Below, in pieces: positions 4,392 through 22,665 of a stretch of 28,756 bases of DNA (positions within the stretch are counted from its first letter, which is position 1; every line of letters begins with the position of its first letter). The translations under genes were made by a program, and so were the position numbers. The notes below the pieces were generated by a model, which ran no database searches, was not told the origin of the DNA, and worked only from the letters and a program-made list of their open reading frames with translations. Location: IMG/VR virus record IMGVR_UViG_3300031997_000047, positions 1-28,756 of that record; one strand, given 5' to 3'. Source of the stretch: a virus.

Positions 4392-5588
4392 CTAGACGCC
4401 GGTCCCGATGTTCACGCCCTTCACCAGGGCGTCGGTCTCCTCCAAGGTCACCGCGACCTTGGCGGTGATGGCGTACTGATTCACACCCTTGAAGATGTCC
4501 CGATCCTTCTCGATCCTGATGTCCCGACCAATGCCCAGGATGAAGTTCGCCTGGTGGGTCAGGAGGATCTGGGGGTTCGCGCAGTACGTGACTTTCACCG
4601 TCTGGCCGTCGGTGATGGCCCCGCCCGACTTGCGGTTGATGGTGCCCGCGGTGGTGTTCAGCTCGTAGTCGGTGTTCAGGATGAGGGGCGTTTCCGCCGT
4701 CGCATCCAGGGTGGAAATGCACACCACGACCGAGCTGATCGGGGCGTACCGAAGCGCGACGGCAGTCGTGCCCGGAAGCGCCACGTGCTGGACCACGGGG
4801 GCCATGAACTCCATCAGGGGAACTTCGACCATGGGAACCCCGAACGGGTTCTGGCCGGCGCCGCCCGCGGCCTGGTCGCCGAGCGCGGTTGCGCGGGTGG
4901 CCAGCTTCTCCATGTAGAGCTGAGCCAGGTCGGGGCTCAAGAACCACCGGAGCGCGGCCTTGTTGCGACGGAACTTGGTCGGCATGGCGCGCAACATCGA
5001 GTTGAAGATGCTGAGGCCGATGTTCTTGCCCTGGGCGTCCAGCACGTGAGCACCGTCACCAAGACGCGCCCACCCATCTTGGAGGGCCAGGTACTTGTCC
5101 TTGACGTACTTGGACGTTGACCCGCCGTCCTTGTAGTCACCCTCGAGGATCGCCGCGCCCACGGTGTCCCCGTTGATGTAGAGCTCTTCCATGTCGTTGG
5201 CGAGCTGGGTGGCCATCATCTTGATCACGTGATCTTCGATGGCCTCACCCTCGATGTTGATCTCCTTGAACACGTCACCGATCTCGAAGGGCACCATGAT
5301 CTCCCGCGGTTGCAGGGTGACCTTGGAAGTCGAGATGGTGCGGCGCAGCCCCGGGTCCTGGGCCTCGGCCTTGGGCAGCGCGGCGCGCCGACCGATGCCG
5401 ATCTTGTCGATCTCCAGCGTCTCGTTGCGGAACCGGACGACGCGGGCGTTGTTCTTGAGCACCGTCTCATCGACCACGTAGTCGATGAACTTGTCGGCCT
5501 GCGCGGGGTTGAGCTTCCCCGCGGAGGCAAGGGCGTCGGTGGTGATGACTGCCTTTTCGATCAACTCTTGGTTCGAGATGCCCGGCAT
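4392..5588 (-). CDS. Major capsid protein, HK97-fold type (398 aa)
   Basis: The ATG at 5588 is preceded by AGGAGG with ideal spacing. Length (398 aa), position directly after the scaffold and the maturation protease, and overall sequence style identify this as the main shell protein. The N-terminus has helical segments (QELIEKAVITTDALASAGK, NPAQADKFIDYVVDE). There follow an extended beta region (KVTLQPREIMVPFEIGDVF) and a long central helix (IKMMATQLANDMEELYING) that suits the HK97 spine helix. The A-domain-like C-terminal half contains VPMVEVPLM and ends QYAITAKVAVTLEETDALV, a typical end of PBSX/XkdG-like and related capsid proteins. A larger cleaved N-terminus is not obvious. The exact subfamily needs a profile search. 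Confidence 0.88.
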   Translation of the reverse strand: MPGISNQELIEKAVITTDALASAGKLNPAQADKFIDYVVDETVLKNNARVVRFRNETLEIDKIGIGRRAALPKAEAQDPGLRRTISTSKVTLQPREIMVPFEIGDVFKEINIEGEAIEDHVIKMMATQLANDMEELYINGDTVGAAILEGDYKDGGSTSKYVKDKYLALQDGWARLGDGAHVLDAQGKNIGLSIFNSMLRAMPTKFRRNKAALRWFLSPDLAQLYMEKLATRATALGDQAAGGAGQNPFGVPMVEVPLMEFMAPVVQHVALPGTTAVALRYAPISSVVVCISTLDATAETPLILNTDYELNTTAGTINRKSGGAITDGQTVKVTYCANPQILLTHQANFILGIGRDIRIEKDRDIFKGVNQYAITAKVAVTLEETDALVKGVNIGTGV

Positions 5589-5644: not shown

Positions 5645-6547
5645 CTACAGCACGCCCGACCAGAGGCTCTTCTTCACCTCTTTGGGCTGGTCGGTGCCCT
5701 CGGGGCCAGTGGCCTTGGAGGGGTTGCGGGCCTTCTCGATCGTGGCGAGCCTCTTGGTCAGCTCGGCGACCTCGTTCTCAAGATCCTTCTGGACCTTGCC
5801 GGCACCAGCCGGGCGAACCTCGCTGGCCATGGCCACGGAGGTCGGCAGCTCCTTGATGGCGGCGAACGCCTCCTTGGCCGCGTTCTCGTCGGCGTCCTGC
5901 AGAACACGGGCCAGGTTCAAGAACGTCTCCTTGATGGCCGACACGCGCTGCTCGGTGAACATCTTGCGACCCTTCGAGATGGCCGCGGTGTCCAGCTCGA
6001 TCGACCCGTCGGCCTTGACCACGAGCAGGTTGCCTTCGCTCTTGGCCTTCTTGCCCTTGGAGTTCGGCGAGGGGTATTCCTCGTCGGGGTTGGCGGGCGC
6101 GCCTTCGGCGCCGGGGCCGGCCTTCGCGGCCTCCTCATCTTCGTCGCCCTTGGCGGCTTTGGCCTTTTCCTCGAGGAAGGTGGTCAGCTCGTCCACTGCA
6201 CCCTTGGGTGCGCCTTTGATTCCGCGGATCATCGCGGCCAGGGCCTTCGGGGGCATCCCCGCCTTCTTCTTCTCCTCCTCCTCCTCGGCTGCTGCGTCAG
6301 CCTTCTCCTCGGGGGTCATCTCGGCCCCCGCCTTGGGCTTGCCAGCCTTCTCAGCCTCGGCGTCCTCGGCGTCCTTCTTGGCCTTCTGCACTTTTTCCTC
6401 CAGGTCGTTTGCGAATGCTCCCATGGTTTTCTCCTCCAGTCGTTTGATCACGAGAAAGGTTCGACGGATTGCCGGTCGGTCCACAAGGCTGACCTCCTTG
6501 ACTTCGAGGTCTACGATCCTTCTCACCTTGCCGGCTGGTTCCGCCAT
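5645..6547 (-). CDS. Capsid scaffold with an N-terminal XkdF-protease tail segment (300 aa)
   Basis: The frame opens with an ATG at 6547. Residues 8-37 (KVRRIVDLEVKEVSLVDRPA followed by a short F-x-V-I-K stretch) carry the EVSLVDRPA signature that normally ends XkdF-type prohead proteases. After residue 42 the protein is a classic scaffold: long helices, highly charged Lys/Glu/Ala-rich low complexity (about residues 45-180), then a helical C-terminus (VQKDLENEVAELTKRLATI) with coiled-coil character. A second in-frame ATG at 6424 (residue 42) has a very strong ribosome binding site, so a shorter scaffold of 259 residues starting MGAFANDLEEKVQ is likely also, or mainly, made. The upstream protease gene lacks this tail, which suggests a split protease. 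Scaffold identity is inferred from position and composition. Confidence 0.82.
   Translation of the reverse strand: MAEPAGKVRRIVDLEVKEVSLVDRPAIRRTFLVIKRLEEKTMGAFANDLEEKVQKAKKDAEDAEAEKAGKPKAGAEMTPEEKADAAAEEEEEKKKAGMPPKALAAMIRGIKGAPKGAVDELTTFLEEKAKAAKGDEDEEAAKAGPGAEGAPANPDEEYPSPNSKGKKAKSEGNLLVVKADGSIELDTAAISKGRKMFTEQRVSAIKETFLNLARVLQDADENAAKEAFAAIKELPTSVAMASEVRPAGAGKVQKDLENEVAELTKRLATIEKARNPSKATGPEGTDQPKEVKKSLWSGVL
6422..6439 (-). promoter_or_regulatory. Internal ribosome binding site and start inside the scaffold frame
   Basis: On the minus strand GGAGGAGAAAACC directly precedes the in-frame ATG at 6424. It is a better Shine-Dalgarno match than the GAGGGC before the annotated start at 6547. 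The bases also encode LEEKT of the longer product. An internal, in-frame scaffold start is the arrangement known for lambda Nu3 within the C protease gene. Here it would separate the scaffold proper from the EVSLVDRPA protease-like leader. Confidence 0.6.
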
Positions 6548-6618: not shown

Positions 6619-9600
6619 TCAAACCATCGACGCGGTGCCCCCGATGGAGAAGCCCGTGATGTCACCATTTTTGATGCGTCCCCAGAGCTGGTCGCTCAAA
6701 ACATGGATGGTGATGAGCCAGGAACCGGCTTTGACCTTTTCCTCGCCAAGTTGCATATCCGTTTTCGCCAGCCATGACTCGTACAGCTCCACGCCGATCC
6801 CGCCGAACATCCGGTGCATGAACCCCATCTGGGTGTCCCGGTTGTACCGGGCGAGGAAGCGGTGAGCCGCGTCTGCAATCACCTCGGGGGTGATCGTGTC
6901 GTTCTGGGCATCAACCACGTCGGGCTCGAGCACGATTCCCGTGACCTCACGCTTCTCGGAGTCAACCTTCAGGATCGGGATCTCGTAGCTCACCTCGAAC
7001 TGGTCAGCTTCGGCCTTGACCGCGGCGCGGGTGGTCGGTGCTACCTGTGAAGGTTCCCAAAGGAACTCGTCGCCCCCGCGGTTGCGCTGCGCCTGGAACA
7101 ACCCCTTCAGCTCCTTCCCCTCAACCATGACCTTCAGGAAGTCAGTGCTCTCGGCAAGCACGCTGGCCCGCCCGCGGTCTATCACCCGAATGGTGGACGG
7201 GGTTTCCTTGGTGGGGTTCAAGTAGTGCCCCGGCTTGATCTCGCCCTCCAGGCTCATCGATTCCAGATGGTGGTCTACGCCCAGCTCGGCCGCGACTTGC
7301 TGGTTGTCGATCGGGCTCTGGTAGAACTTGATCGCGATCAGCTCGCGACGCCCCACGTTCAACCGGAGCCAGTAGATGCGGGAGGACGGTCCGGTGCGCA
7401 CTTGAATCGGCCCCCTCCACGTCTGCTCCTGCAACACGAACTCGGCGTCGTTCATGCTGGCCTTCTCCACCTTGAACACCTGGTCAAAGTTCAGCTTCAC
7501 GTCGCCCTTGCTCACCGCCTCAACCAGGGAGTCCCGTTGCGCCTTGGCCCCGCCAGCGGTGCCCGCCTTCCAGTATTGGAAAGCCGTGGGCACCTGCAAC
7601 CGCACCTTGGCGGGGAGTGCCGAGTAACCCAGCGGCGGCATCCAGCTTGAGGCAACCGCGTCCCGCCCGAGCACGTAGGGTGTGAGATCGTTCGGGTAGA
7701 TACCAAACCAATTCGCCCCCTCCCCCGGCTGGTCCTTGGGCTCCTGCGAAGGAGGCAGGATCGTCTTCGACTGGCTTGCGGCACTGGCCCGAGCGTTGGC
7801 CCCTTCAGGTGGCAGGTTCCAGACCTCGCCCTTCTCGGCGCGCTGAATGTTGAGCTGGCGGAAGATCAGGCGGTAGTTCATGGCCGCGCCGTGGACAAAG
7901 TATTCATGCACCCATGGCTTCTGAGCCCCGAACTCAACCGTCCCCTGGTCCACGATCAAGAACACCCCGGGAAAGTTCACGGTGGCTCCCACTGGCGGGC
8001 GCTCACCCTCCTGGCCCGCGGGAGTCACTCCCTCAACGTTGATCCACTCGTAGGGCTCGGGTGCCTTGCGCTCGCTGAGAATCTCGGTACGAACCAGAGC
8101 TTCACTTCCCCTCCGCGGCCGCTCAGCCCACTCACCAGTCTTCCAGTTGATCTTGGAAACCTGGTCGATTCGCCGAACAACTTCCTTTGCCTCGGCCAGG
8201 GTAGTCACCGGCTCCGGGATCGAACCCTCGATCATGGTATTCAGGGTCCAACCAATGAGCAGCCGGCGCGGCCGCAACGTGACCCGGAAGTCACTATGCA
8301 AGCTGCGCCCGCGGTGGTGATGATGCACGACGTAGGGATAGCTCCCGCCCTCGGGTGGAATCTCGAGATAGGGGTCCTCTTGTTTCTCCGTGGTCGTTGC
8401 TTGCTTGTACTCGATCTCACCGTCGGCGTTGATCTCCTTCTCCTGCAAGACCAGGTTCTCGCGGGCCCGGCTTGCTGCCGAGTCCACCGTGTCGGGCTCG
8501 CCGTCCCACGGCCCCATCACGCGGGGCACCCACGCCGACATTTCCTGGCCTTCGGGCCCGTTGACCAGGTTCACCGTTTCAGCTTCGATCAGAATCCCGT
8601 CACCCTCTTTGAACTCAAGCCTGGTGGCCATGGAATCGCCTACGGGAAGCACCTCATGCTCACCAGCTCGCACGGTGGCTTCGGGGGCCTTTGCACCTGG
8701 GCGCACGCCCCATCCGTAGACCCACGCCCCGCTTCCCGTGCGATCCTTGCGGTAGACCACGCCCCGAACCAGGGTGGCGTTGTGGAACTTGATCCACGTG
8801 TCGGGCGTGCTCATGTCCAGTGGGTACACGGAGTCAGATCGCTTGGTCACCACCCCTTCGGATCCGGGCAGGGTTCGCATCTGGCGAACCGCGTGCTCCA
8901 GCTCGTCAGGGGTCTCCACTTCCTCACCTGGTACCGCGTTCAGCTTGCCCCCCGTGTCGGGCACCCCGGTCGTCTTCTGCTTGATGCCCAACCCCGCCAG
9001 CACGCTCAGCCGGTCTTCAAACGGTTCCCCGTGCAGGTCCTCACCAGCGTAGAGCACGTCAAACACGTTGACCACGACGGCACCATCATCGGGCTCCGTT
9101 TGCCCGTTGATGTACCCGGCAACCGCTTCCCGCGGTAGATGCTGCCGCCCCTTCCACATCTCCACCTCTGCGTCAAGGATCAACTTGGGTTCGCGCAGAC
9201 TCAGCACCTCCTTCACCACCGTTGGGAACCGAGGGGTGTTGTCGGTACCGTCCTCCGAGAAGATCAGCACGCGGTCACCATCCCGGTGAATCTGGTGGCG
9301 GGCCCCGTCGAACTTTTTCTGAACGAAGGCAGGAAGCCAATCGGGATTCGCGTTGAAGTACCCGATGAACCTCTCGACGGACTGCTCCTGCTCTGGGGCG
9401 GCGGCGCGGGTGGGCTTGGGTTGGAAGAAGAACTTGCCCACGGTGAGCCGGTTGTCGCGCTTGGCCTCCTCCGCGTCGTGCAGCATGGCCTCGCTCGCGG
9501 CACCGGGCTCTTGCTTCTCAAGGCTGAACATGGGTTCAGGGTTGTCCCAGTACGTGAACCCGCCAAAGTCAACAAGCGCCTTCTCGACCTTTTTCTTGCC

Positions 9601-10524
9601 CTCTGGCCTGGCGATGAACTTCTGATAGGAGTCCACGTTGAACTTCTTCATCGCCGCGATGTACTTCTTGATATGGTGGATGGTGACCACCTTGGTCTTG
9701 AACCCCATGCCCGACTTGTCGATCTTGTACTGGTCAAGCACGCTGCGCCAGTGAACGCTCCGCACCTTGGGAGGCATGGGGGTTCGGACCTCATAGACAT
9801 CGGGTCGGTCGTAGCCTTTCAAAAACGGAATGGGCCCGTAGTCCTCGATCTCCTTCGGTTCGTACACGAGCACCTTGCCGAAAGCCGCGGCCTTGTGCCA
9901 CGCGGTTGAGTCCACGGAATCGATCCGATCGAAGTCATTCAAGAACCGCCGCAAGCTGCCCACCGCGAGCATGTGGGTCAACGTCTTGACCTCGCGCCCC
10001 TTGGCGAAAGCAACCTTCACGGCCTCCAGAGGATCGCCGGGGAACTTTCGCTGCCCGCGCATCGGGAGCGTCTTGGCAAACCCGCTCAGCGCCAGCTTGT
10101 CCCGGTCTACCCAGATTTTGTGAACCTTCTCCTTCTCGGTCTTCATCCAAAGGTGGTCAACGAACAGTGGGTCAACCCCGCCCTTCTTGGCGCGCTCATA
10201 GTAGTCCAAGGTCTTCCTGCGCGACGCCAGATCATCAAACTGCACGTACTCGTCAGCCCAGCTCTTTTCGCTTTTCATGAAGTCCAGCCACTCTTCGAAG
10301 TGAACAGTCCCGGGAGTGGAGAAGTTCGTGAAGCCCCCTGAGTCCAGCATCACGCGCCCGCGGTGCTTCTTGATCGAAGTGAGCAGGTTGCCCTTCTTGT
10401 CGGAACGCTCGTTCAAGAAGGCGAACGAAACAAGGATGTCCTGACCTTGAAAATACTCCGCGAACTGGGCATAGTCACTTTTGTCAACCGCGAAATAGTA
10501 GTAGAAGCTCTTCTTGCTGGCCAT
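6619..10524 (-). CDS. Giant fusion: DpdA-like DNA transglycosylase, ATP-dependent DNA ligase, LigD 3'-phosphoesterase-like segments, XkdF-like prohead protease (1301 aa)
   Basis: The ATG at 10524 follows AAGGAGGCTTCCC. Residues 1-335 form a TGT-superfamily domain of DpdA type, which swaps guanine in DNA for a 7-deazaguanine: DSGGF at 61-65, FDD at 96-98, LAVG at 186-189 and a DSTAW segment at 205-209. Residues 385-585 are an ATP-dependent ligase core: motif I KFDGAR (404-409, Lys404 would carry AMP), LDAEVE (450-455), FDVLYAGEDLHGE (488-500), EGVVTK (556-561) and WIKFH (577-581). An OB-like region follows to about 670. Residues 730-760 (YVVHHHHRGR, then SLHSDFR) and 1029-1165 (FVLQEQTWRG, then LNPTKETPS) resemble LigD phosphoesterase units. 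Residues 1175-1301 are XkdF-type serine protease, with His1237 (GFMHR) and Ser1293 (GFSIGG) as likely catalytic residues. The frame is uninterrupted, and the protease C-terminal strand is absent. Domain calls are strong; processing of the fusion is unknown. Confidence 0.88.
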   Translation of the reverse strand: MASKKSFYYYFAVDKSDYAQFAEYFQGQDILVSFAFLNERSDKKGNLLTSIKKHRGRVMLDSGGFTNFSTPGTVHFEEWLDFMKSEKSWADEYVQFDDLASRRKTLDYYERAKKGGVDPLFVDHLWMKTEKEKVHKIWVDRDKLALSGFAKTLPMRGQRKFPGDPLEAVKVAFAKGREVKTLTHMLAVGSLRRFLNDFDRIDSVDSTAWHKAAAFGKVLVYEPKEIEDYGPIPFLKGYDRPDVYEVRTPMPPKVRSVHWRSVLDQYKIDKSGMGFKTKVVTIHHIKKYIAAMKKFNVDSYQKFIARPEGKKKVEKALVDFGGFTYWDNPEPMFSLEKQEPGAASEAMLHDAEEAKRDNRLTVGKFFFQPKPTRAAAPEQEQSVERFIGYFNANPDWLPAFVQKKFDGARHQIHRDGDRVLIFSEDGTDNTPRFPTVVKEVLSLREPKLILDAEVEMWKGRQHLPREAVAGYINGQTEPDDGAVVVNVFDVLYAGEDLHGEPFEDRLSVLAGLGIKQKTTGVPDTGGKLNAVPGEEVETPDELEHAVRQMRTLPGSEGVVTKRSDSVYPLDMSTPDTWIKFHNATLVRGVVYRKDRTGSGAWVYGWGVRPGAKAPEATVRAGEHEVLPVGDSMATRLEFKEGDGILIEAETVNLVNGPEGQEMSAWVPRVMGPWDGEPDTVDSAASRARENLVLQEKEINADGEIEYKQATTTEKQEDPYLEIPPEGGSYPYVVHHHHRGRSLHSDFRVTLRPRRLLIGWTLNTMIEGSIPEPVTTLAEAKEVVRRIDQVSKINWKTGEWAERPRRGSEALVRTEILSERKAPEPYEWINVEGVTPAGQEGERPPVGATVNFPGVFLIVDQGTVEFGAQKPWVHEYFVHGAAMNYRLIFRQLNIQRAEKGEVWNLPPEGANARASAASQSKTILPPSQEPKDQPGEGANWFGIYPNDLTPYVLGRDAVASSWMPPLGYSALPAKVRLQVPTAFQYWKAGTAGGAKAQRDSLVEAVSKGDVKLNFDQVFKVEKASMNDAEFVLQEQTWRGPIQVRTGPSSRIYWLRLNVGRRELIAIKFYQSPIDNQQVAAELGVDHHLESMSLEGEIKPGHYLNPTKETPSTIRVIDRGRASVLAESTDFLKVMVEGKELKGLFQAQRNRGGDEFLWEPSQVAPTTRAAVKAEADQFEVSYEIPILKVDSEKREVTGIVLEPDVVDAQNDTITPEVIADAAHRFLARYNRDTQMGFMHRMFGGIGVELYESWLAKTDMQLGEEKVKAGSWLITIHVLSDQLWGRIKNGDITGFSIGGTASMV

Positions 10525-10540
10525 GGGAAGCCTCCTTGAA

Positions 10541-11167
10541 TCAACCGCGGTTGAGCTGAAGCTGCAGAAAGAACTCCTCGCGCGTCTCAGGCTTTTCCAA
10601 GAACACGCCCATCAACTTCGTGGTCTTCATCACCGCGCCGGGCTTGCGAACGCCCCTGCAGACCATGCAGAGATGCGTTGCTTCCAGATGCACCCCCAGC
10701 CCACAAGGATGAAGGTACTCGTGCATCGCCATCGCAATCTGGGCGGTCAGGCGCTCTTGGATCTGCAACCGCCGAGCGTAGCAATCAAGCAGCCTGGCAA
10801 GCTTGGAGATGCCGACCACCTTCTGAGCGGAGGGAATATAGCTGATGGTACCGTGGCCTGAGAAGGGAAGCAGGTGGTGCTCGCACACGCTGATGAAGGG
10901 AATGTTCGCCAGCGTGATCATCTCGTCGTACCCCTCCGCGGGGAAGGCCGTGCTGAGAACGTCCTTGGGGTCAAGAAGGTAGCCCCCCAACATCTCCTCC
11001 CAAGCCTTGGCCACGCGCTCGGGGGTCTTCATCAGCCCCGGGTCGTTCGGATCCCTACCGAAGGCGCGCAGCATCCGCGCAACCGCGCCCTCTATAACAA
11101 CCCGAGCCGCTTGTGCATCTGTCCCGAAATGCGAAATCCTTGCCTCTTGCTTGCCAGTGTCAGACAT
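10541..11167 (-). CDS. folE: GTP cyclohydrolase I (208 aa)
   Basis: This enzyme opens GTP to 7,8-dihydroneopterin triphosphate, the first step toward both folate and 7-deazaguanines. The family motifs are complete: CEHHLLPFSG (zinc ligands Cys95 and His98), a central region (KVVGISKLARLLDCYARRL), and ATHLCMVCRGVRKPGA with Cys167 as third zinc ligand. The length is normal. I chose the ATG at 11167, which has AAGGAG upstream; a longer frame back to 11233 adds an unlikely leader. The first 76 bases overlap the end of queE in another frame. It is the last of three adjacent preQ0 genes and lies 16 bases before the DpdA fusion gene, so its product most likely feeds DNA modification rather than folate. 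Confidence 0.95.
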   Translation of the reverse strand: MSDTGKQEARISHFGTDAQAARVVIEGAVARMLRAFGRDPNDPGLMKTPERVAKAWEEMLGGYLLDPKDVLSTAFPAEGYDEMITLANIPFISVCEHHLLPFSGHGTISYIPSAQKVVGISKLARLLDCYARRLQIQERLTAQIAMAMHEYLHPCGLGVHLEATHLCMVCRGVRKPGAVMKTTKLMGVFLEKPETREEFFLQLQLNRG

Positions 11168-11706
11168 CTGTTCGCGTTCTCCTTGAGGCGCACCCCATCC
11201 ACCGGCTGAAGGAACCAGTGGTCCGCGGTACACACCGCAACCAATTCGGTGATCTGCTCATCCGAAGGGGTGCCCTCTGTGATTGGGATCTTGATCTCGT
11301 CGCAGGTCCGTTGCCTCAGTCCGTCGATTCCAGGTGGCCACTTGGGGCTCACCGTGAGCAGGTCGGGCCACTCGTCCGGGCGAAACTCCCGCGTGCCGTT
11401 CGTCTCGATCGCAACGAACCAACCCTGTCCCTTGAATTGCTGAACCATGCTCTCGAGAGCGTAGAGGGTGGGCTCGCCGCCCGTGATGCAGAGGTGCTTG
11501 ATGGTGGTGCCCTCGGCCAGCGCCCGCACCTCATCTACAATCTGGTCGATCGGCATTGGTCCCAACCCGTTGTCGTGGTCCGTATCGCACCAGGCACAAG
11601 CCAGGTTGCACCCAGCCAACCGCACGAAGATCATGGGCACCCCAACCAGGGAGCCCTCCCCCTGCACCGTGCGAAAAATCTCGACCACCCTATACCCGGT
11701 CTTCAC
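11092..11706 (-). CDS. queE: 7-carboxy-7-deazaguanine synthase, radical SAM (204 aa)
   Basis: QueE converts 6-carboxy-tetrahydropterin to 7-carboxy-7-deazaguanine. The N-terminus carries the family signature FRTVQGEGSLVGVP. The iron-sulfur cluster motif CNLACAWC has Cys33, Cys37 and Cys40 (CxxxCxxC, as in QueE). GGEP at 76-79 is the SAM-binding segment, ETNGT lies near residue 100, and the end (SGQMHKRLGLL) is typical. The start is a GTG at 11706 that overlaps the queD stop by 17 bases. The 3' end overlaps folE by 76 bases. Such long overlaps in one operon suggest compact, coordinated expression. All cluster ligands are present, so it should be active. Confidence 0.95.
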   Translation of the reverse strand: MKTGYRVVEIFRTVQGEGSLVGVPMIFVRLAGCNLACAWCDTDHDNGLGPMPIDQIVDEVRALAEGTTIKHLCITGGEPTLYALESMVQQFKGQGWFVAIETNGTREFRPDEWPDLLTVSPKWPPGIDGLRQRTCDEIKIPITEGTPSDEQITELVAVCTADHWFLQPVDGVRLKENANRCLTLASKRQGFRISGQMHKRLGLL

Positions 11707-12049
11707 AGTACATGACCTCCGAGCCGGGGGTTTCCTCCACGATCACGGACACCCGGTCGAGGAACTCAAACCGGGCCAACGTTTCCTTTGCCAGATACGC
11801 CGCCATGTTCTCAGCGGTCGAAGGCACCACCTTGAAGGCGGGATGGTCGTTCAGGCACGTGTGGTCAAACTTCCGTGGAAGCTCGGCCAGCTCCCCGAAG
11901 TCCACGACCATCCCTTGATCGTTCAGGGCTCGGGCGCTGACGATGAACGTGATGCGCCAGCGGTGCCCGTGAAGGTTCTTGCACTTCCCCGGATGCGCGG
12001 GCAGGAAGTGAGCCGCGTCAATCTCAATCGTCTTCGTCAGCTTCCACAT
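11690..12049 (-). CDS. queD: 6-carboxy-5,6,7,8-tetrahydropterin synthase (119 aa)
   Basis: QueD turns dihydroneopterin triphosphate into 6-carboxy-tetrahydropterin. The zinc histidines are His14 (AAHFLP), His27 and His29 (NLHGH). The catalytic Cys23 lies in GKCKNLHGH. FDHTCLND supplies the Asp-His pair at 62-63, and VEETPG near 104 supplies the pterin-anchoring Glu. The ATG at 12049 has GAGGAGG six bases upstream. That ribosome binding site and the first 26 bases sit inside the acidic C-terminal tail of the preceding 826-residue gene. The length is normal for the bacterial QueD family. Confidence 0.95.
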   Translation of the reverse strand: MWKLTKTIEIDAAHFLPAHPGKCKNLHGHRWRITFIVSARALNDQGMVVDFGELAELPRKFDHTCLNDHPAFKVVPSTAENMAAYLAKETLARFEFLDRVSVIVEETPGSEVMYCEDRV

Positions 12050-14504
12050 TGGCGTCCTCCTCGTTCGCGTCCTTGCGCCTGCAAGGCGGAACGTCTTCCG
12101 GGGCGAGGTCCTCAACCTGTTCTACTTCCGCCCGCTGGTAGATGGCCTCCCGGTCCAGCTTGATATCTTCCGCCATCTGCTTCACCTCGTTCTTGGGGTT
12201 GACGCGCTCGAGCACCATGTCAAAAAGCTCAACGTGACTGGTGAAGGGCCCGCCGAACTTGTCAAGGTGGAATTGCACTCGGTCGCTGAGCTCCGGGGGA
12301 AGGGCCCGCCCGATCCTGAACTTGATCACGTGCAGAAGCGGTGCCGGCATTCCCTCGGCTTCCTTGATCAGGATGTCGATGTCGCCCTTGGTTCTTCCGT
12401 TGTTGGCCAGCCCGCCAACCAGGTACACGAACGGCATCCTAGCCTTGAAGGTCTTGAAGTGGGGCAGCACTTCGCTCAAGCTGATCTCCCGCCCAATCAC
12501 GTTGCCCGAGGAGTTGACCTGGGAGAACTCATCCTTGCGAACCCGCTTGCGACCTGGCTCCTGCCAGTAATCGGGCTGACTGCCCGCGTTGTTCTCGAAG
12601 TCGCTGGAGTTCTCGTCCAGGCCATCGTCGGGAGGGGGCGGGTGCGACTTGCCGCGGCCGTACATCTCGTCCACAACCCTCGCGTGCAGGTTGCTCAGGT
12701 CCTCGGTTGAGAACCCGGGGTGCGCCGGCTTGCGGTACCACTGGTGAAGGGTCCAGTGGGCCTGCAGAAGCTCGGGCGAGTTCATGTCGCTTGGGTCCGT
12801 GTCCGGGCGCAGGCTCACGCGCTTGTCCTTTCTTTCCAGTACGAGCGGATCGTCCACGCTCTCAAAGTGGTTTTCCAGGTGGGGCTTGCCGCGGTCAACC
12901 AGGGAGAACGCCCCGTGAACCACGTGGGCGCTCAGCGTGGACCAAGACCAGCCCAGCGGTTTGGCCTCCTTGCCGTTGGTCTTGGCGATCCGGCTGGCCT
13001 CCTTCTTCATCATGCTCCAGGCCTTCTCGCGGTTCCATCCACCCTTGTTGAGCGAGAACCACACGTATCCCCACGTGAGCAAGGCCAGAACTGGTTTCTG
13101 GTTCTTGCAGAGCGAGCAGTATTTCTCGAAAGCCTTGAACGGGGAGCCGCTGGCGTCGAAGTCGATCACGGTCACGGGTTGCGCGCAGACGTCGAACTCC
13201 TCCATGAACTTGATGTTGTCGGAAACATGCACCTGCGCCTTGGGGTGCTTCTTGCGGTACGCCCGGGCCCGTGCAGGATCCGCCTCAACCGCAAGGTGCT
13301 CGGCGTCCTTCTTGAGGGCGCACTCGGATCGCCCGGTGCCCGCGAATAGCTCGAGCACCACTCCACCCTTGCGCGCCGACTTCAACGCCGTCAGGTAGTA
13401 TGCTGTCTTCTGCGGCTTGCTTGCGATCTGGTTGGACATACGCCCATCGGTCGGTTCGCTCACGGTGCGCACCCGATGCTCTTTGGACTTCAGAACATAG
13501 GTGTCGGTATGACTCAGCTCGGCTTCCGTGATGTCGAACTCCTCACCCAGCACGGGCAGCTCAAGGCTCAAACGAGCCCCGACCGGGAGATAGGCAACGG
13601 TGGCGTGCGGGACGAACCCATGCTTGGGCTTGCTCTCGCCGGTCAGCTCAACCAGCTCCTCCCGAAGCTGTGAGTACACCGACTCAAGCCCGGGTGCGTC
13701 GAGCAACGCAACCAGAGCGGTCTTGGGCTCCCCACCCTTGCTTGCCCCGTCAAAGTACGCCCACCCTTGCAGCTTGGCCTTGATGGGCAGGTGCTCGCGC
13801 AGGACCTCCTTTGCCTCGGTTGCGGCATCCTGCGCCTGCTCGGGGGTGAAGTCCTCGGCACCTTTGAGGTACAGGAGGGTGACGTGATCCACGTCCTCCA
13901 CTTCCACGCCTTTGCCGCGCATCTCCGCGGCGACCACGCGCGACAGGCTGGTCAGCTTGGCGCGCACGTTCTCGGGGGTTGGGATGTAGAAAAGCAACCG
14001 CCCCGGATTGTTCTCAACCCGCTTGGCGACCCGAAACTGTTCGGGGGGAATCCCCACCTCTTGAGCCACCTCCAGAAAAAAATCGCGCACGCTGTCCTTC
14101 ATGCCCTTGGGATCGAACATGACCACGGCCGGCCCCCGCCGCTTGGCCTCCTGTAGGATTTGGGTGAGGACGTTGTGGATCGTGGGTAGGTCGTACTTGA
14201 ACTCGCCGGTTGTCGTGAGGGTGGCGTACCAGGCCAGCACGATCCGCAAGTCGTCGCGCAGCACGGCATCGCTCATCTCGCTTGGCCGATAGTGCCGCGC
14301 ATCTTCGATCTTGGAGATCGAAGTCTCGTCCTTCAGGGAATCCACAAACCGCGGAGCCTCGGGCAGTACCCCGCTTTCGCCCAGGTGTCCCGGGTTCACC
14401 TTGCCTCCACCCGCAAGGTCATCACTGGTGATTGCCTTCACGCGCCGCACCTGCTCGCGATCCTGGTTGGGGAGTGCCCGTCGCTTCAACCGAATGTGGG
14501 CCAT
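12024..14504 (-). CDS. Three-enzyme fusion: 2H phosphoesterase, Rossmann methyltransferase-like, Pol-beta-type nucleotidyltransferase (826 aa)
   Basis: The ATG at 14504 follows GAGGTGAGTC. Residues 1-190 are unassigned. Residues 200-345 form a 2H (LigT/cyclic phosphodiesterase) domain, with the two HxT motifs HVTL at 207-210 and HATV at 300-303 and the usual spacing of about 90. Residues 360-560 start with a class I methyltransferase motif (VLELFAGTGRSE near 382-394), followed by VEADP and DFDASGSP (448-455). The last recalls the D-x-D-P-x-GSP motif of Trm1-type tRNA guanine methyltransferases, but this is not proof of substrate. Residues 690-790 show a nucleotidyltransferase pattern: VGG at 696-698, GDIDIL with Asp708 and Asp710, and HVELFD at 757-762 as a possible third acidic position. 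The tail is acidic and disordered. It may process nucleic-acid ends alongside the ligase/phosphoesterase fusion. Domain order is seen; substrates are unknown. Confidence 0.82.
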   Translation of the reverse strand: MAHIRLKRRALPNQDREQVRRVKAITSDDLAGGGKVNPGHLGESGVLPEAPRFVDSLKDETSISKIEDARHYRPSEMSDAVLRDDLRIVLAWYATLTTTGEFKYDLPTIHNVLTQILQEAKRRGPAVVMFDPKGMKDSVRDFFLEVAQEVGIPPEQFRVAKRVENNPGRLLFYIPTPENVRAKLTSLSRVVAAEMRGKGVEVEDVDHVTLLYLKGAEDFTPEQAQDAATEAKEVLREHLPIKAKLQGWAYFDGASKGGEPKTALVALLDAPGLESVYSQLREELVELTGESKPKHGFVPHATVAYLPVGARLSLELPVLGEEFDITEAELSHTDTYVLKSKEHRVRTVSEPTDGRMSNQIASKPQKTAYYLTALKSARKGGVVLELFAGTGRSECALKKDAEHLAVEADPARARAYRKKHPKAQVHVSDNIKFMEEFDVCAQPVTVIDFDASGSPFKAFEKYCSLCKNQKPVLALLTWGYVWFSLNKGGWNREKAWSMMKKEASRIAKTNGKEAKPLGWSWSTLSAHVVHGAFSLVDRGKPHLENHFESVDDPLVLERKDKRVSLRPDTDPSDMNSPELLQAHWTLHQWYRKPAHPGFSTEDLSNLHARVVDEMYGRGKSHPPPPDDGLDENSSDFENNAGSQPDYWQEPGRKRVRKDEFSQVNSSGNVIGREISLSEVLPHFKTFKARMPFVYLVGGLANNGRTKGDIDILIKEAEGMPAPLLHVIKFRIGRALPPELSDRVQFHLDKFGGPFTSHVELFDMVLERVNPKNEVKQMAEDIKLDREAIYQRAEVEQVEDLAPEDVPPCRRKDANEEDANVEADEDD

Positions 14505-14712: not shown

Positions 14713-16869
14713 TCACTTGTTGAAAATATCCCAGAACCGTTCGGTGAGTTCCTTGTCTTCCAAGAGGGACTTCCTCATGCCGTTTTGAAATGCCGTGTTG
14801 AGGGCGTCGATCTCAGCCGTCTTCAACCCAGCCGTGAGTTCGGGTGGCATCTTGAACTTGCTCACGAAGGCTTCAAGGAACTCCTTGGCCGTTTCGGTTC
14901 TGTCGGGATCTGACTTGAACCGCAACGCGGCATCAGTCAGCAACTTGCGCCCACCGTTGTTCATGGGAAGGTGTGCGATCCCTCGAGCCTCGTTCTGGGC
15001 GGCGTTGCCCGAGAACTTGCTCCAGAGGTTTGACGAAGGCGTGAGCTTCTTGGCCACGGCGTGAGTCAGCTCGGTCAGCCGTTCGATCCCGGGGTCATAG
15101 GCGCAGGACGCCTCGCCAGGCGCGAACCACTGCAAGCCCCACTTCTTGTTTGCGATGAACTTGGTCACCACCTCGGTTGTCGATTCCTCGATCACGCGCC
15201 CGATCACCTTTCCGATCCTACTGGTCGCGGCGCCCGGGGTCACCCCGTGGTATGCAGCGAACTTGTCGGAAGTGCATCCGTGGATCGTTTCATGAAGCAA
15301 AACCTTCATGGACCAGGCTTCATCCCGGGTGAGCTTCTTGGCCGCGGTCCTGTCGAGCTTGACGCCCTTCTTGGACATCCCCTTCAGGCTCTTGAAGCAA
15401 TCCTTGCCCATCGCGATCCGGCCACTGTAGTTCGTATGGAAGCCGCCGCCGCCGCGGGCCATTGCAAGCAAGGTTCGCCCGTGCTTGCCGATATCGGTGT
15501 TGACCAGCTTCTCGGCTGCAACAAGAGCGTTCATCTCGCGCCGAATCTCGATTGCAAATTCCTCCCGAACCAAGCTGTTATTCCCCTTCATCGCGGTTGG
15601 GATTTTCAGCTTGCGAAAGGCGTCCTTGAACTTCGTCTCGTTGAAGTACGTGGTCGGGGTGACCGGCGACTTCGCCAGCTCGGGGAACTCGGGCGGAACC
15701 ACGCCTTCGGCAATGACTGGCGGGGGAGGGGGCTCCTCGGGTTGCAGTTCAGGCGGCAGCACGTCTTCCCCTTGGGGAAGCTCCCCCTCGGCCGGATCCC
15801 ATGAACCCGCCTCCTGGCTCACGTCGATCGTGCATCTGCACCGGAAGTGAAAGGGTGGCATTGCGAACCCGCCCTCGGCCAGCGCCGCGGAATCCTCCAT
15901 GGAGCCTTCGCCCCGCTTGATTCCCATCTCCTCCAGCTTCTCAGAGGTCAACCACGGGTGAGCCTCCTGCACGGCCCCAGGGTCGCTGCCCAGCTCGCCC
16001 GCCATCACACCAACCCCTTGGGTGGTCGTGAAGGTTTTGCCGTCCATGGCTCCGCAGATTTCACAGGTGCGCTCATCCAGCGGGTTCATGATCGTGTACT
16101 TCGTGATCCCGTAGTCCACGAAGGAGCGGAGCTGGCCTTGCGTGCGGGCGACCGTGGCCGCGTTGGCAACCAGGCCCTCGAAATACTGCTCGGCTGAACC
16201 GCGGTAGCCCGCGGGTGTGGACGCCCTACCTAGCTCCAGGTCAAGGGCAGCGCGAACCCGCGTGCCTGCATCCACCGGGTCGCCCCCGCTCTCAACGATC
16301 GCCTCCTTCGCAGTGCGGGCGATTGCGTCGCTCACGTTCTTTTCATAGTGCGCGCCGGTCCAGAACACCTGATGGTCAACCAGGGACTCAACCGCCCGCT
16401 CATCGATCACGTCAAAAGCCGGCTTGGCTTCCGCGAACCGTCGCGCACCCTCGGCTTTTCCCACAGCCTCTGAGGTCGTGGGGGTGTCGTAGGTGAGCGG
16501 GCCCTGCTTGAGTCCCTGGCACTTCTTCCAGCCAACCTCCCGGGCAAGGCGGTAGATGCGTTCGAGCCCGTCGGCGTATCGCGCCTTCACCTCCCCACCC
16601 CACCGCCCCATGATAACGTTCACCTTGCGGGCGATCTCTGCACCGCTGGCCCCTTGGCGTGCGGCCTTGGAGCCTGCGTCTACCGCTTCACGGGAGAGCT
16701 GATCCCACTTGCTGAGCAGGTACTCGCGCAGAAGCACTTCAGCGCGTGCAATCTGCGCCACGAGGTCCACCTTGGCCACTTCGCAGATCACGAACTCCGC
16801 GGCGACCAGGGCGTCCAGGCGCTCATCCAAGCTGAGCTTGGAAAGGAAGTTGCCCAGCACGTGGCTCAC
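14713..16869 (-). CDS. MuF/SPP1-gp7-type minor head protein with C-terminal HExxH metallopeptidase-like domain (718 aa)
   Basis: The GTG at 16869 overlaps the portal stop by four bases (GTGA). The N-terminal half is the phage head morphogenesis domain: ARTQGQLRSF, then ERTCEICGAMDGKTF with Cys269 and Cys272, and PPFHFRCRCTIDV with Cys344 and Cys346, the usual ending of this domain. MuF-type proteins sit at the portal inside the head and may be ejected with the DNA. After a Pro-rich linker (about 350-395) comes a separate domain. It holds LLHETIHGC (His526, Glu527, His530) and a downstream EESTTE (Glu561 or Glu562), the layout of a gluzincin-type zinc peptidase. MuF proteins often carry variable C-terminal effector domains, so a role on host proteins or in head maturation is plausible. 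Activity is not demonstrated. Confidence 0.87.
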   Translation of the reverse strand: MSHVLGNFLSKLSLDERLDALVAAEFVICEVAKVDLVAQIARAEVLLREYLLSKWDQLSREAVDAGSKAARQGASGAEIARKVNVIMGRWGGEVKARYADGLERIYRLAREVGWKKCQGLKQGPLTYDTPTTSEAVGKAEGARRFAEAKPAFDVIDERAVESLVDHQVFWTGAHYEKNVSDAIARTAKEAIVESGGDPVDAGTRVRAALDLELGRASTPAGYRGSAEQYFEGLVANAATVARTQGQLRSFVDYGITKYTIMNPLDERTCEICGAMDGKTFTTTQGVGVMAGELGSDPGAVQEAHPWLTSEKLEEMGIKRGEGSMEDSAALAEGGFAMPPFHFRCRCTIDVSQEAGSWDPAEGELPQGEDVLPPELQPEEPPPPPVIAEGVVPPEFPELAKSPVTPTTYFNETKFKDAFRKLKIPTAMKGNNSLVREEFAIEIRREMNALVAAEKLVNTDIGKHGRTLLAMARGGGGFHTNYSGRIAMGKDCFKSLKGMSKKGVKLDRTAAKKLTRDEAWSMKVLLHETIHGCTSDKFAAYHGVTPGAATSRIGKVIGRVIEESTTEVVTKFIANKKWGLQWFAPGEASCAYDPGIERLTELTHAVAKKLTPSSNLWSKFSGNAAQNEARGIAHLPMNNGGRKLLTDAALRFKSDPDRTETAKEFLEAFVSKFKMPPELTAGLKTAEIDALNTAFQNGMRKSLLEDKELTERFWDIFNK

Positions 16870-21727: not shown

Positions 21728-21985
21728 TTAGGCCTCCCCATTCACTGCACCCGAGGGACTCAGGCTGTAGGACAAGGGCTCGCCTTCCACTCGATGCGCC
21801 ACAACCATCTTGGTCTTTTCCAGCCGGCGCAGGATCGCCTTCAATTCCCTTGTGGGCCAGTTCAACCTCATGGCAAGCAGATTCACGCCGAACTTCCCGC
21901 GCCCAGTCTCACGCGGGTCTGTCCGGTCCAGCTCGATCATTTCCTGCAAGACATCGAGACGGCCTGGGGCCTTGAACTCCTTCAT
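21728..21985 (-). CDS. Small winged-helix-like DNA-binding protein (85 aa)
   Basis: The ATG at 21985 overlaps the queC stop (ATGA). Residues 10-60 read as a helix-turn-helix or winged-helix unit: LDVLQEMIELDRTD, then GVNLLAMRLNWPTRELKAI and LRRLEKTKMVVAHRVEG, ending in a strand-like SYSLSPSG. It resembles the MarR/Lrp-style reading heads used by phage regulators, but is too short for a full regulator. It may regulate this operon or be a structural adaptor. Confidence 0.65.
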   Translation of the reverse strand: MKEFKAPGRLDVLQEMIELDRTDPRETGRGKFGVNLLAMRLNWPTRELKAILRRLEKTKMVVAHRVEGEPLSYSLSPSGAVNGEA

Positions 21986-22665
21986 GGCTGCACCTGCATC
22001 GCAGGGTCATCCTGCCCAGCTTCCGCAAAACCTTTTGCGCGCAGCTTGCACGCCGGGCACTGGGCGCACCCGGGTCGCTGGCCGTGATAGCAGGTCACCG
22101 TCTTTGCCAAGGCCTCCCAGCATCCGGGAAGAATCTTGGCGAGCATAACCTCATCCGCCTTGCTCAACCCCAGGAAAGGAGCGAACAGGCGCAGCCGGTG
22201 ATCCATGCCTCGTTGAATCGCCAGTTCCAGGGGCTCGAGCGCCTCCCGTCTGCAGTCGGGATATCCCGAGAAGTCGGCTTCGCTCACTCCCATGACCACG
22301 TTGAAGCAACCCTGTTGAACCCCCAGCGCCGCGGCGAACAGGACCATCACAAGGTTGCGCCCAGGGAGGAAAGTCGTGGGCAACCCGTCCCCACGGTCGA
22401 GCGCAACCTCACCCCCGCCCTCCAGCATAGCGCACCCGCCAATCACCTTGAAGGCGGGCAGGGGCAGCACGTGCAGGGGCACACCGATCGCGCCCGCAAT
22501 CTCCCGGGCAGCTTCCATCTCGAGAGCGTGCCGCTGGCCGTAGTCGAAATTGACCGCGATGATCGGCCGGGGCAGGTGTCGGATGGCCCAGAACAAGGCC
22601 GTCGTACTATCCTGCCCCCCGCTCAACAGCACGATCGTTCCCCCGTGGGTCGGTGCGTCGTTCAT
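21982..22665 (-). CDS. queC: 7-cyano-7-deazaguanine (preQ0) synthase (227 aa)
   Basis: QueC uses ATP and ammonia to turn 7-carboxy-7-deazaguanine into preQ0. The PP-loop SGGQDST lies at 15-21, followed by VNFDYGQRHALE and PGRNLVM. Then come VSEADFSGYPDCR and the zinc site near the C-terminus, TCYHGQRPGCAQCPACK, with Cys192, Cys200, Cys203 and Cys206. All family motifs are present and the length is normal. The ATG overlaps the upstream stop (ATGA), and its stop overlaps the next gene's start. It lies about 10 kb upstream of queD-queE-folE, on the other side of the terminase and portal genes but on the same strand. No amidotransferase domain is fused, unlike the Gat-QueC proteins of archaeosine-type phages. 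Confidence 0.95.
   Translation of the reverse strand: MNDAPTHGGTIVLLSGGQDSTTALFWAIRHLPRPIIAVNFDYGQRHALEMEAAREIAGAIGVPLHVLPLPAFKVIGGCAMLEGGGEVALDRGDGLPTTFLPGRNLVMVLFAAALGVQQGCFNVVMGVSEADFSGYPDCRREALEPLELAIQRGMDHRLRLFAPFLGLSKADEVMLAKILPGCWEALAKTVTCYHGQRPGCAQCPACKLRAKGFAEAGQDDPAMQVQP

Follow-up and report, generated by a model that had tools for sequence, protein, structure and literature searches.

A phage head-operon polyprotein joining DpdA, DNA ligase and LigD-type phosphoesterase domains to the head protease in one reading frame

The window analysed here is a virus fragment of 28,756 bases (IMG/VR record IMGVR_UViG_3300031997_000047, positions 1 to 28,756; a metagenome-derived contig) that carries on its minus strand, from 10524 to 6619, a single open reading frame (ORF) for a polyprotein of 1301 residues. 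From N- to C-terminus, this polyprotein consists of a DpdA domain, an ATP-dependent DNA ligase, a LigD-type 3'-phosphoesterase (copy 1), a second phosphoesterase fold, and an XkdF/S78_2 head protease. With moderate confidence, it is read as a late 'polyvalent' head-operon polyprotein whose protease would bring enzymes of DNA modification and end repair into the prohead and release them. The domains lie in one frame and are homologous to known families, their catalytic residues are nearly invariant, the arrangement recurs in other contigs and keeps its place in the head operon, the fused protease was the sole one of its kind found, and DpdA and Dam methyltransferase are swapped between relatives; what we infer is that the enzymes are active, that they enter the prohead and are cut free, and when they act.

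A preceding model-made reading of the letters (the sequence-only reading) had described one uninterrupted frame at 6619–10524. The frame is indeed continuous over its 1301 residues, on the minus strand, and the plus-strand translation of the same stretch is interrupted by stops. Translation starts from an ATG at 10524 that is preceded by a strong ribosome-binding site, i.e., the Shine-Dalgarno sequence AAGGAGG read directly at 10531–10537, with the stop codon of FolE (10541–10543) immediately upstream of it. All window features given below lie on the minus strand. The residues quoted in that reading (D61-S-G-G-F, D205-S-T-A-W, K404-F-D-G, EGVVTK, WIKFH, H1237, and S1293) were all found at their positions, and its assignment of DpdA, ligase, LigD phosphoesterase, and XkdF-type protease to one frame proved right by profiles and structure models; two phosphoesterase copies are present, beyond what it had recorded.

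The C-terminal XkdF/S78_2 prohead protease (residues 1172–1301, H1237 and S1293; 6622–7011) was matched by Pfam PF14550 at residues 1184–1299 (E 1.5e-28, 99.8 bits vs a cut-off of 24). Its histidine and serine are kept in 55/55 sequences, and it is the last domain in fused ORFs. The protease adjoins scaffold and capsid genes, and this place in the head operon is conserved. Fifteen records were checked, and each has its only S78_2 protease in the fused protein; no separate S78 gene was found in them, the S78 match in the L066 record (relatives are denoted by L numbers) overlapping the protease/scaffold boundary. No second head protease that would relieve the fusion of head duty was thus found in these 15 records.

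The N-terminal DpdA/tRNA-guanine transglycosylase (TGT)-type domain (residues 1–302; 9619–10524) was assigned by PHROG 887, hhalign, and an AlphaFold2 model, and carries the catalytic D61 and D205 as well as the conserved H184. PHROG 887 (DpdA/TGT) was matched at residues 10–225 (E 9e-7), and phrog_887 was matched by 8/8 members of the fused-DpdA alignment. The best solved matches of the AlphaFold2 model of the N-terminus (predicted local distance difference test score (pLDDT) 80.5, predicted template modelling score (pTM) 0.81) were TGTs (Foldseek E 5e-8), with a VIA Z of 18 against archaeosine TGT, and the fused-DpdA profile matched DpdA of Enterobacteria phage 9g and relatives (hhalign 98.2%, E 3e-14). 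D61, H184, and D205 are invariant across seven fused and five isolate-phage DpdAs, the histidine being His196 of 9g, and the aspartates are kept in 7/7 sequences of the family alignment. The sequence-only reading had named a failure to match DpdA, or a lack of its catalytic aspartates, as grounds for giving up its proposal; the segment matches DpdA and keeps both aspartates. Pentatricopeptide-repeat and alpha-solenoid matches of the DpdA profile in a PDB sequence search covered short stretches and were rejected as spurious.

Directly upstream of the polyprotein lies FolE, GTP cyclohydrolase I of the preQ0 pathway (10541–11233; PF01227, E 4e-63), followed by QueE, 7-carboxy-7-deazaguanine synthase (11092–11706; TIGR04508, E 5e-29, below the curated cut-off; phrog_2076, E 3e-33), and QueD, 6-carboxytetrahydropterin synthase (11690–12115; PF01242, E 4e-28; TIGR03367 just below the cut-off). 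QueC, preQ0 synthase lacking an amidotransferase domain, is encoded at 21982–22665 (PF06508, E 5e-57; TIGR00364). PreQ0-synthesis genes stand directly upstream in 8/8 DpdA loci having upstream sequence, with FolE and QueC alone being recognised in L030 and L031, and nearby in 0/77 other contigs carrying the module. Homology, catalytic residues, and linked preQ0 genes together identify the domain as a DpdA, for which preQ0 insertion into DNA is predicted. A further DpdA-like match was observed outside the head polyprotein in G030 (the record of L102; 53276–54646), where ligase and phosphoesterase genes are separate.

The ligase nucleotidyltransferase domain (residues 396–582, K404; 8779–9339) was matched by Pfam PF01068 at residues 399–580 (E 2e-21, well above the cut-off), and its motifs I, III, IV, and V are present with conserved K404, E453, E556, K561, and K579. 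It is followed by a region (residues 583–694; 8443–8778) that is co-conserved with the ligase domain in relatives and is, by eye, a presumed OB-fold with motif VI (SAWVPRVMG). The lysine K404 is kept in 64/67 relatives, the intein-split L003 being one of the three exceptions. A PF01068-type ligase is single in each record having one, and lies within the head operon where checked.

LigD-type phosphoesterase copy 1 (residues 715–905; 7810–8382) was identified by its catalytic residues H736, H743, D745, and R747 and by profile (3p4h). Its sequence matches to LigD phosphoesterases are weak; PF13298 was unmatched in the window protein and matched in 5/31 relatives (best E 1.6e-4). H743 and D745 are present in 78/78 rows ungapped there, and the four residues are kept in nearly all relatives. 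A conserved helical segment, seen in the alignment and the AlphaFold2 model (residues 930–1025; 7450–7737), separates it from the second phosphoesterase fold (residues 1026–1161; 7042–7449), which lacks catalytic residues and was recognised by its structural match to 3p43 (VIA Z 16.2, root mean square deviation 2.0 over 119 residues) and a weak TIGR02777 match, on a model of moderate overall confidence (pLDDT 75, pTM 0.51). The LigD phosphoesterase fold is clearest in copy 2, which is without the residues, and the catalytic H, H, D, R set stands in copy 1. The family additionally has a nucleotidyltransferase (NTase) module, which keeps its aspartates in 63/64 ungapped rows, matches Pfam NTP_transf_2 weakly, and had no match in a PDB search.

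The family was collected by scans of virus contigs, to which ANMV-1 (from phage records) and the window were added, yielding 86 contigs with the phosphoesterase. The protease is fused in 25 of these, is the next ORF in 26, and lies further downstream in two; in four, the contig ends. These counts are not all independent, because a few contigs are near-copies. DpdA is in frame with the module in the window as well as in L002, L003, L011, L012 (truncated), L022, L029, L030, and L031, of which L030 and L031 look like near-copies and L002 ends before the protease. The homologue search proposed in the sequence-only reading was therefore answered by recurrence, with DpdA sharing a frame with ligase and/or protease in further contigs, and an assembly join, which that reading had named as a way to overturn it, was not what was found: L011 and further contigs carry the same kind of frame.

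Domain content varies around this common plan. L002 has modules of the 826-residue neighbouring gene of the window inserted between DpdA and ligase, the ligase of L030 is placed after the phosphoesterase, and in L003 (10010–15217) an intein with a LAGLIDADG endonuclease sits exactly in ligase motif I (KYDG^C...SN^S). A Dam methyltransferase occurs in the fused ORF, without DpdA, in L014, L044–L046, L048, and L066, and L013 likewise has Dam without DpdA in an ORF cut by the contig end. A quick tree of the phosphoesterase pairs the DpdA-bearing L011 with the Dam-bearing L013 as sisters (96% in the Shimodaira–Hasegawa-like approximate likelihood-ratio test, SH-aLRT), and the DpdA and Dam labels each need at least six changes, the exact counts being uncertain because the tree is quick and some rows are long. 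DpdA and Dam interchange between near relatives. Among Myxococcota prophage-like loci, the closest proteases (~45–50% identity) have only Dam attached. The full architecture was seen in no isolate phage in a set of 50,697 records, and isolate phages and plasmids gave partial matches only. In L005, L006, L052, and others, a metallo-beta-lactamase-fold domain and one or two DNA methyltransferases were observed between ligase and phosphoesterase, in ORFs of up to 2011 residues.

The closest precedent is given by the 'polyvalent proteins' that Iyer et al. (2017, PMC5512222) described from phages and conjugative elements. Phage proteins of this kind combine several enzymes, end in an assemblin-like protease to which roles in virion processing were given, and were proposed to be packaged and injected. 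As in those proteins, which include DNA methylases and 2H domains, unrelated enzymes are joined here in one polypeptide among virion genes, and the peptidase, always C-terminal there, is the last domain in fused ORFs here. By its domain assignments, with at least two unrelated enzymes among virion genes and a C-terminal peptidase, the window protein would qualify as polyvalent and may likewise be packaged and injected. The main text of that study differs in naming no LigD, deazaguanine, TGT, or DpdA, its 'ligase' domains being RNA ligases, and in reporting the Pol-beta NTase from conjugative elements only. DpdA of phage 9g (Hutinet et al. 2019, PMC6884629) shares the fold, the catalytic aspartates, the conserved histidine, and FolE directly upstream, but has its own gene, next to those for DNA polymerase and clamp, whereas here it forms the N-terminus of a head-protease polyprotein; phage DpdA was treated in that study without mention of ligase, protease, or capsid. 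LigD and archaeal non-homologous end-joining proteins (3p4h, 3p43, 3n9b) have in common with the polyprotein the ATP-dependent ligase and a phosphoesterase with the H, H, D, R motif; in contrast to them, a LigD polymerase domain was unrecognised and Ku was not found here, and the phosphoesterase is duplicated, copy 2 being without catalytic residues. XkdF/S78_2 proteases, including Dam fusions (phrog_1530; Myxococcota prophage-like loci), share the protease, the position before scaffold and capsid genes, and an N-terminal DNA-modifying enzyme, but these fusions carry Dam only, whereas the enzyme set here is much larger, with DpdA and ligase. The same NTase-ligase-phosphoesterase-phosphoesterase module is found in the ANMV-1 virus ligase (KP703175, annotated 'ATP-dependent DNA ligase'), which unlike the window polyprotein has neither DpdA nor protease. 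The sequence-only reading knew of no described DpdA-ligase-protease polyprotein; the fusion is undescribed in this form in the open-licence literature searched, beyond which prior reports may exist, but the general idea is less new than that statement implied, given the polyvalent proteins and the Dam-protease fusions in many prophage-like loci. The polyprotein is best filed as a variant of the polyvalent-protein principle.

If this reading holds, DpdA would exchange guanine in phage DNA for preQ0, made by the neighbouring FolE, QueD, QueE, and QueC, and preQ0 in the DNA may guard it against host nucleases. The ligase and LigD-type phosphoesterase would clean 3' ends and seal nicks. The C-terminal S78_2 domain would bring the precursor into the prohead and mature the head, and the protease would cut the enzymes loose for action on DNA at packaging or ejection. 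This is supported by the protease being fused, next, or further downstream in 53 contigs, by preQ0 genes at DpdA loci, by the exchange of DpdA for Dam among near relatives, by Dam-protease fusions in Myxococcota loci, and by the precedent of polyvalent proteins with a C-terminal assemblin-like peptidase among virion genes (PMC5512222). A capsid precursor, with packaging and cleavage as predicted steps, is also consistent with the sole head protease and its conserved place in the head operon. Active enzymes are consistent with the data, because the catalytic residues have been conserved despite strong divergence of the family and because the intein of L003 splits the active-site motif of the ligase; structural relics are unlikely, because active-site residues are kept family-wide and the ligase is lost in few members. 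That enzymes attached to the head protease mark the DNA and repair its ends is put forward as a hypothesis. More tentatively, the whole may be a capsid-internal DNA-finishing machine, in which a swappable DpdA or Dam and an end-healing ligase/phosphoesterase are tethered to the only head protease; the genome would then be marked and its nicks repaired within the prohead, at its entrance, or just after ejection, and not in the cytoplasm.

Several observations weigh against a role in the head. The ligase lysine is lost in L020 and L022 and the ligase is absent from L017–L019, L042, L046, and L048, so ligation is dispensable in places; ligase and phosphoesterase form a separate gene beside the protease in ~26 relatives, so the fusion is not essential; and the local profile recognised no downstream protease in another 29 contigs. 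A full complement of 145-kDa precursors would also occupy much head space. These separate adjoining genes would suit a polyprotein whose protease releases itself before or during assembly, leaving DpdA, ligase, and phosphoesterase to act in the late-infection cytoplasm on replicated DNA before packaging, with the fusion serving co-expression and fixed stoichiometry only. This explanation is further favoured by the dependence of DpdA on free preQ0 and by other phages such as 9g, where DpdA has a gene of its own, but it leaves unexplained why the partner is repeatedly the head protease, at the C-terminus, across differing architectures, and why both DpdA and Dam are joined to it; we regard it as rather unlikely.

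Less probable still is that NTase, ligase, and phosphoesterase are a LigD-like device trimming and sealing genome ends or nicks right after injection, with DpdA as a rider. The pairing of ligase and LigD-type phosphoesterase, often with a Pol-beta-type NTase, and the ligase being the sole PF01068-type one in records having one are in its favour; however, Ku was found in 0/23 records (possibly incomplete), a LigD-type polymerase domain was unrecognised in Pfam, PHROGs, and NCBIfam scans of the polyprotein, and several relatives lost the ligase yet keep the phosphoesterase. Ku-dependent end joining was rejected on the Ku search of the 23 records. Phage operons are mosaic and domain order varies (as in L030), which would allow a mere accident of gene order, in which head-operon enzyme genes became fused to the protease via stop-codon loss without functional link, but fusion or direct adjacency in 51 contigs of strongly diverged relatives, with catalytic residues kept throughout, makes this very improbable. 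An assembly or sequencing artefact joining separate genes, conceivable for a metagenome-derived contig, has practically no probability left: L011, from another sample, has the same domain order and length (55% identity in the best segment), DpdA is joined in frame to ligase and/or protease in further contigs, and the local signals (Shine-Dalgarno, continuous frame) are normal. Chance or assembly error behind the fused frame is excluded by these independent contigs.

The polyprotein bears on whether phages mark and repair their genomes with head-carried enzymes after packaging or at ejection; its enzymes share a covalent chain with the single protein that has to get into the prohead. The exchange of DpdA and Dam in the same polypeptide of close relatives offers a natural series for asking which purpose the modification serves. 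Ligase, LigD-type phosphoesterase, and DpdA are added to the enzymes known from polyvalent phage proteins, in a family spanning many uncultured phages and a virus of anaerobic methanotrophic (ANME) archaea. This recurring, rearranging family suggests that in some phages DNA-finishing enzymes may travel into the head.

Prophage-like loci with Dam-protease and Dam-Dam-protease fusions (L107–L124) were observed mostly in Myxococcota metagenome-assembled genomes, and Myxococcota are a possible host group of the window phage. Within the polyprotein gene, an internal TTG with a Shine-Dalgarno sequence, a possible start for a free protease, is located at residue 1142, ahead of the protease; a Shine-Dalgarno sequence with a start codon near the protease occurs in 6/22 fused ORFs vs 2.8 expected (P 0.05) and is not common to the window and L011.

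Downstream of the protease, a scaffold-like gene (5645–6547), whose role is suggested by position and which has a homologue at the same place in relatives, opens with EVSLVDRPA (6470–6496), a motif usual near S78-type proteases. A PF04586 match in the L066 record crosses the TAG separating the protease and scaffold ORFs, as if both were one split ancestral protein. A programmed frameshift from the protease into the scaffold ORF was ruled out, since the frames differ and a stop lies between them. The major capsid-like protein is encoded at 4392–5588 (phrog_1623 virion structural protein, E 3e-75). Upstream of the preQ0 genes, a second multidomain protein of 826 residues (12024–14504; PF13563, E 1e-9) combines a 2H phosphoesterase with both HxT motifs, a methyltransferase-like domain, and a Pol-beta-type nucleotidyltransferase, and some of its modules recur inside the L002 polyprotein. 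It is preceded by a MuF-like head protein (14713–16869; phrog_115, phrog_595) with a HETIH zincin motif at 15294–15280, and HExxH was also found in the MuF ORFs of L002, L003, L007, and L077.

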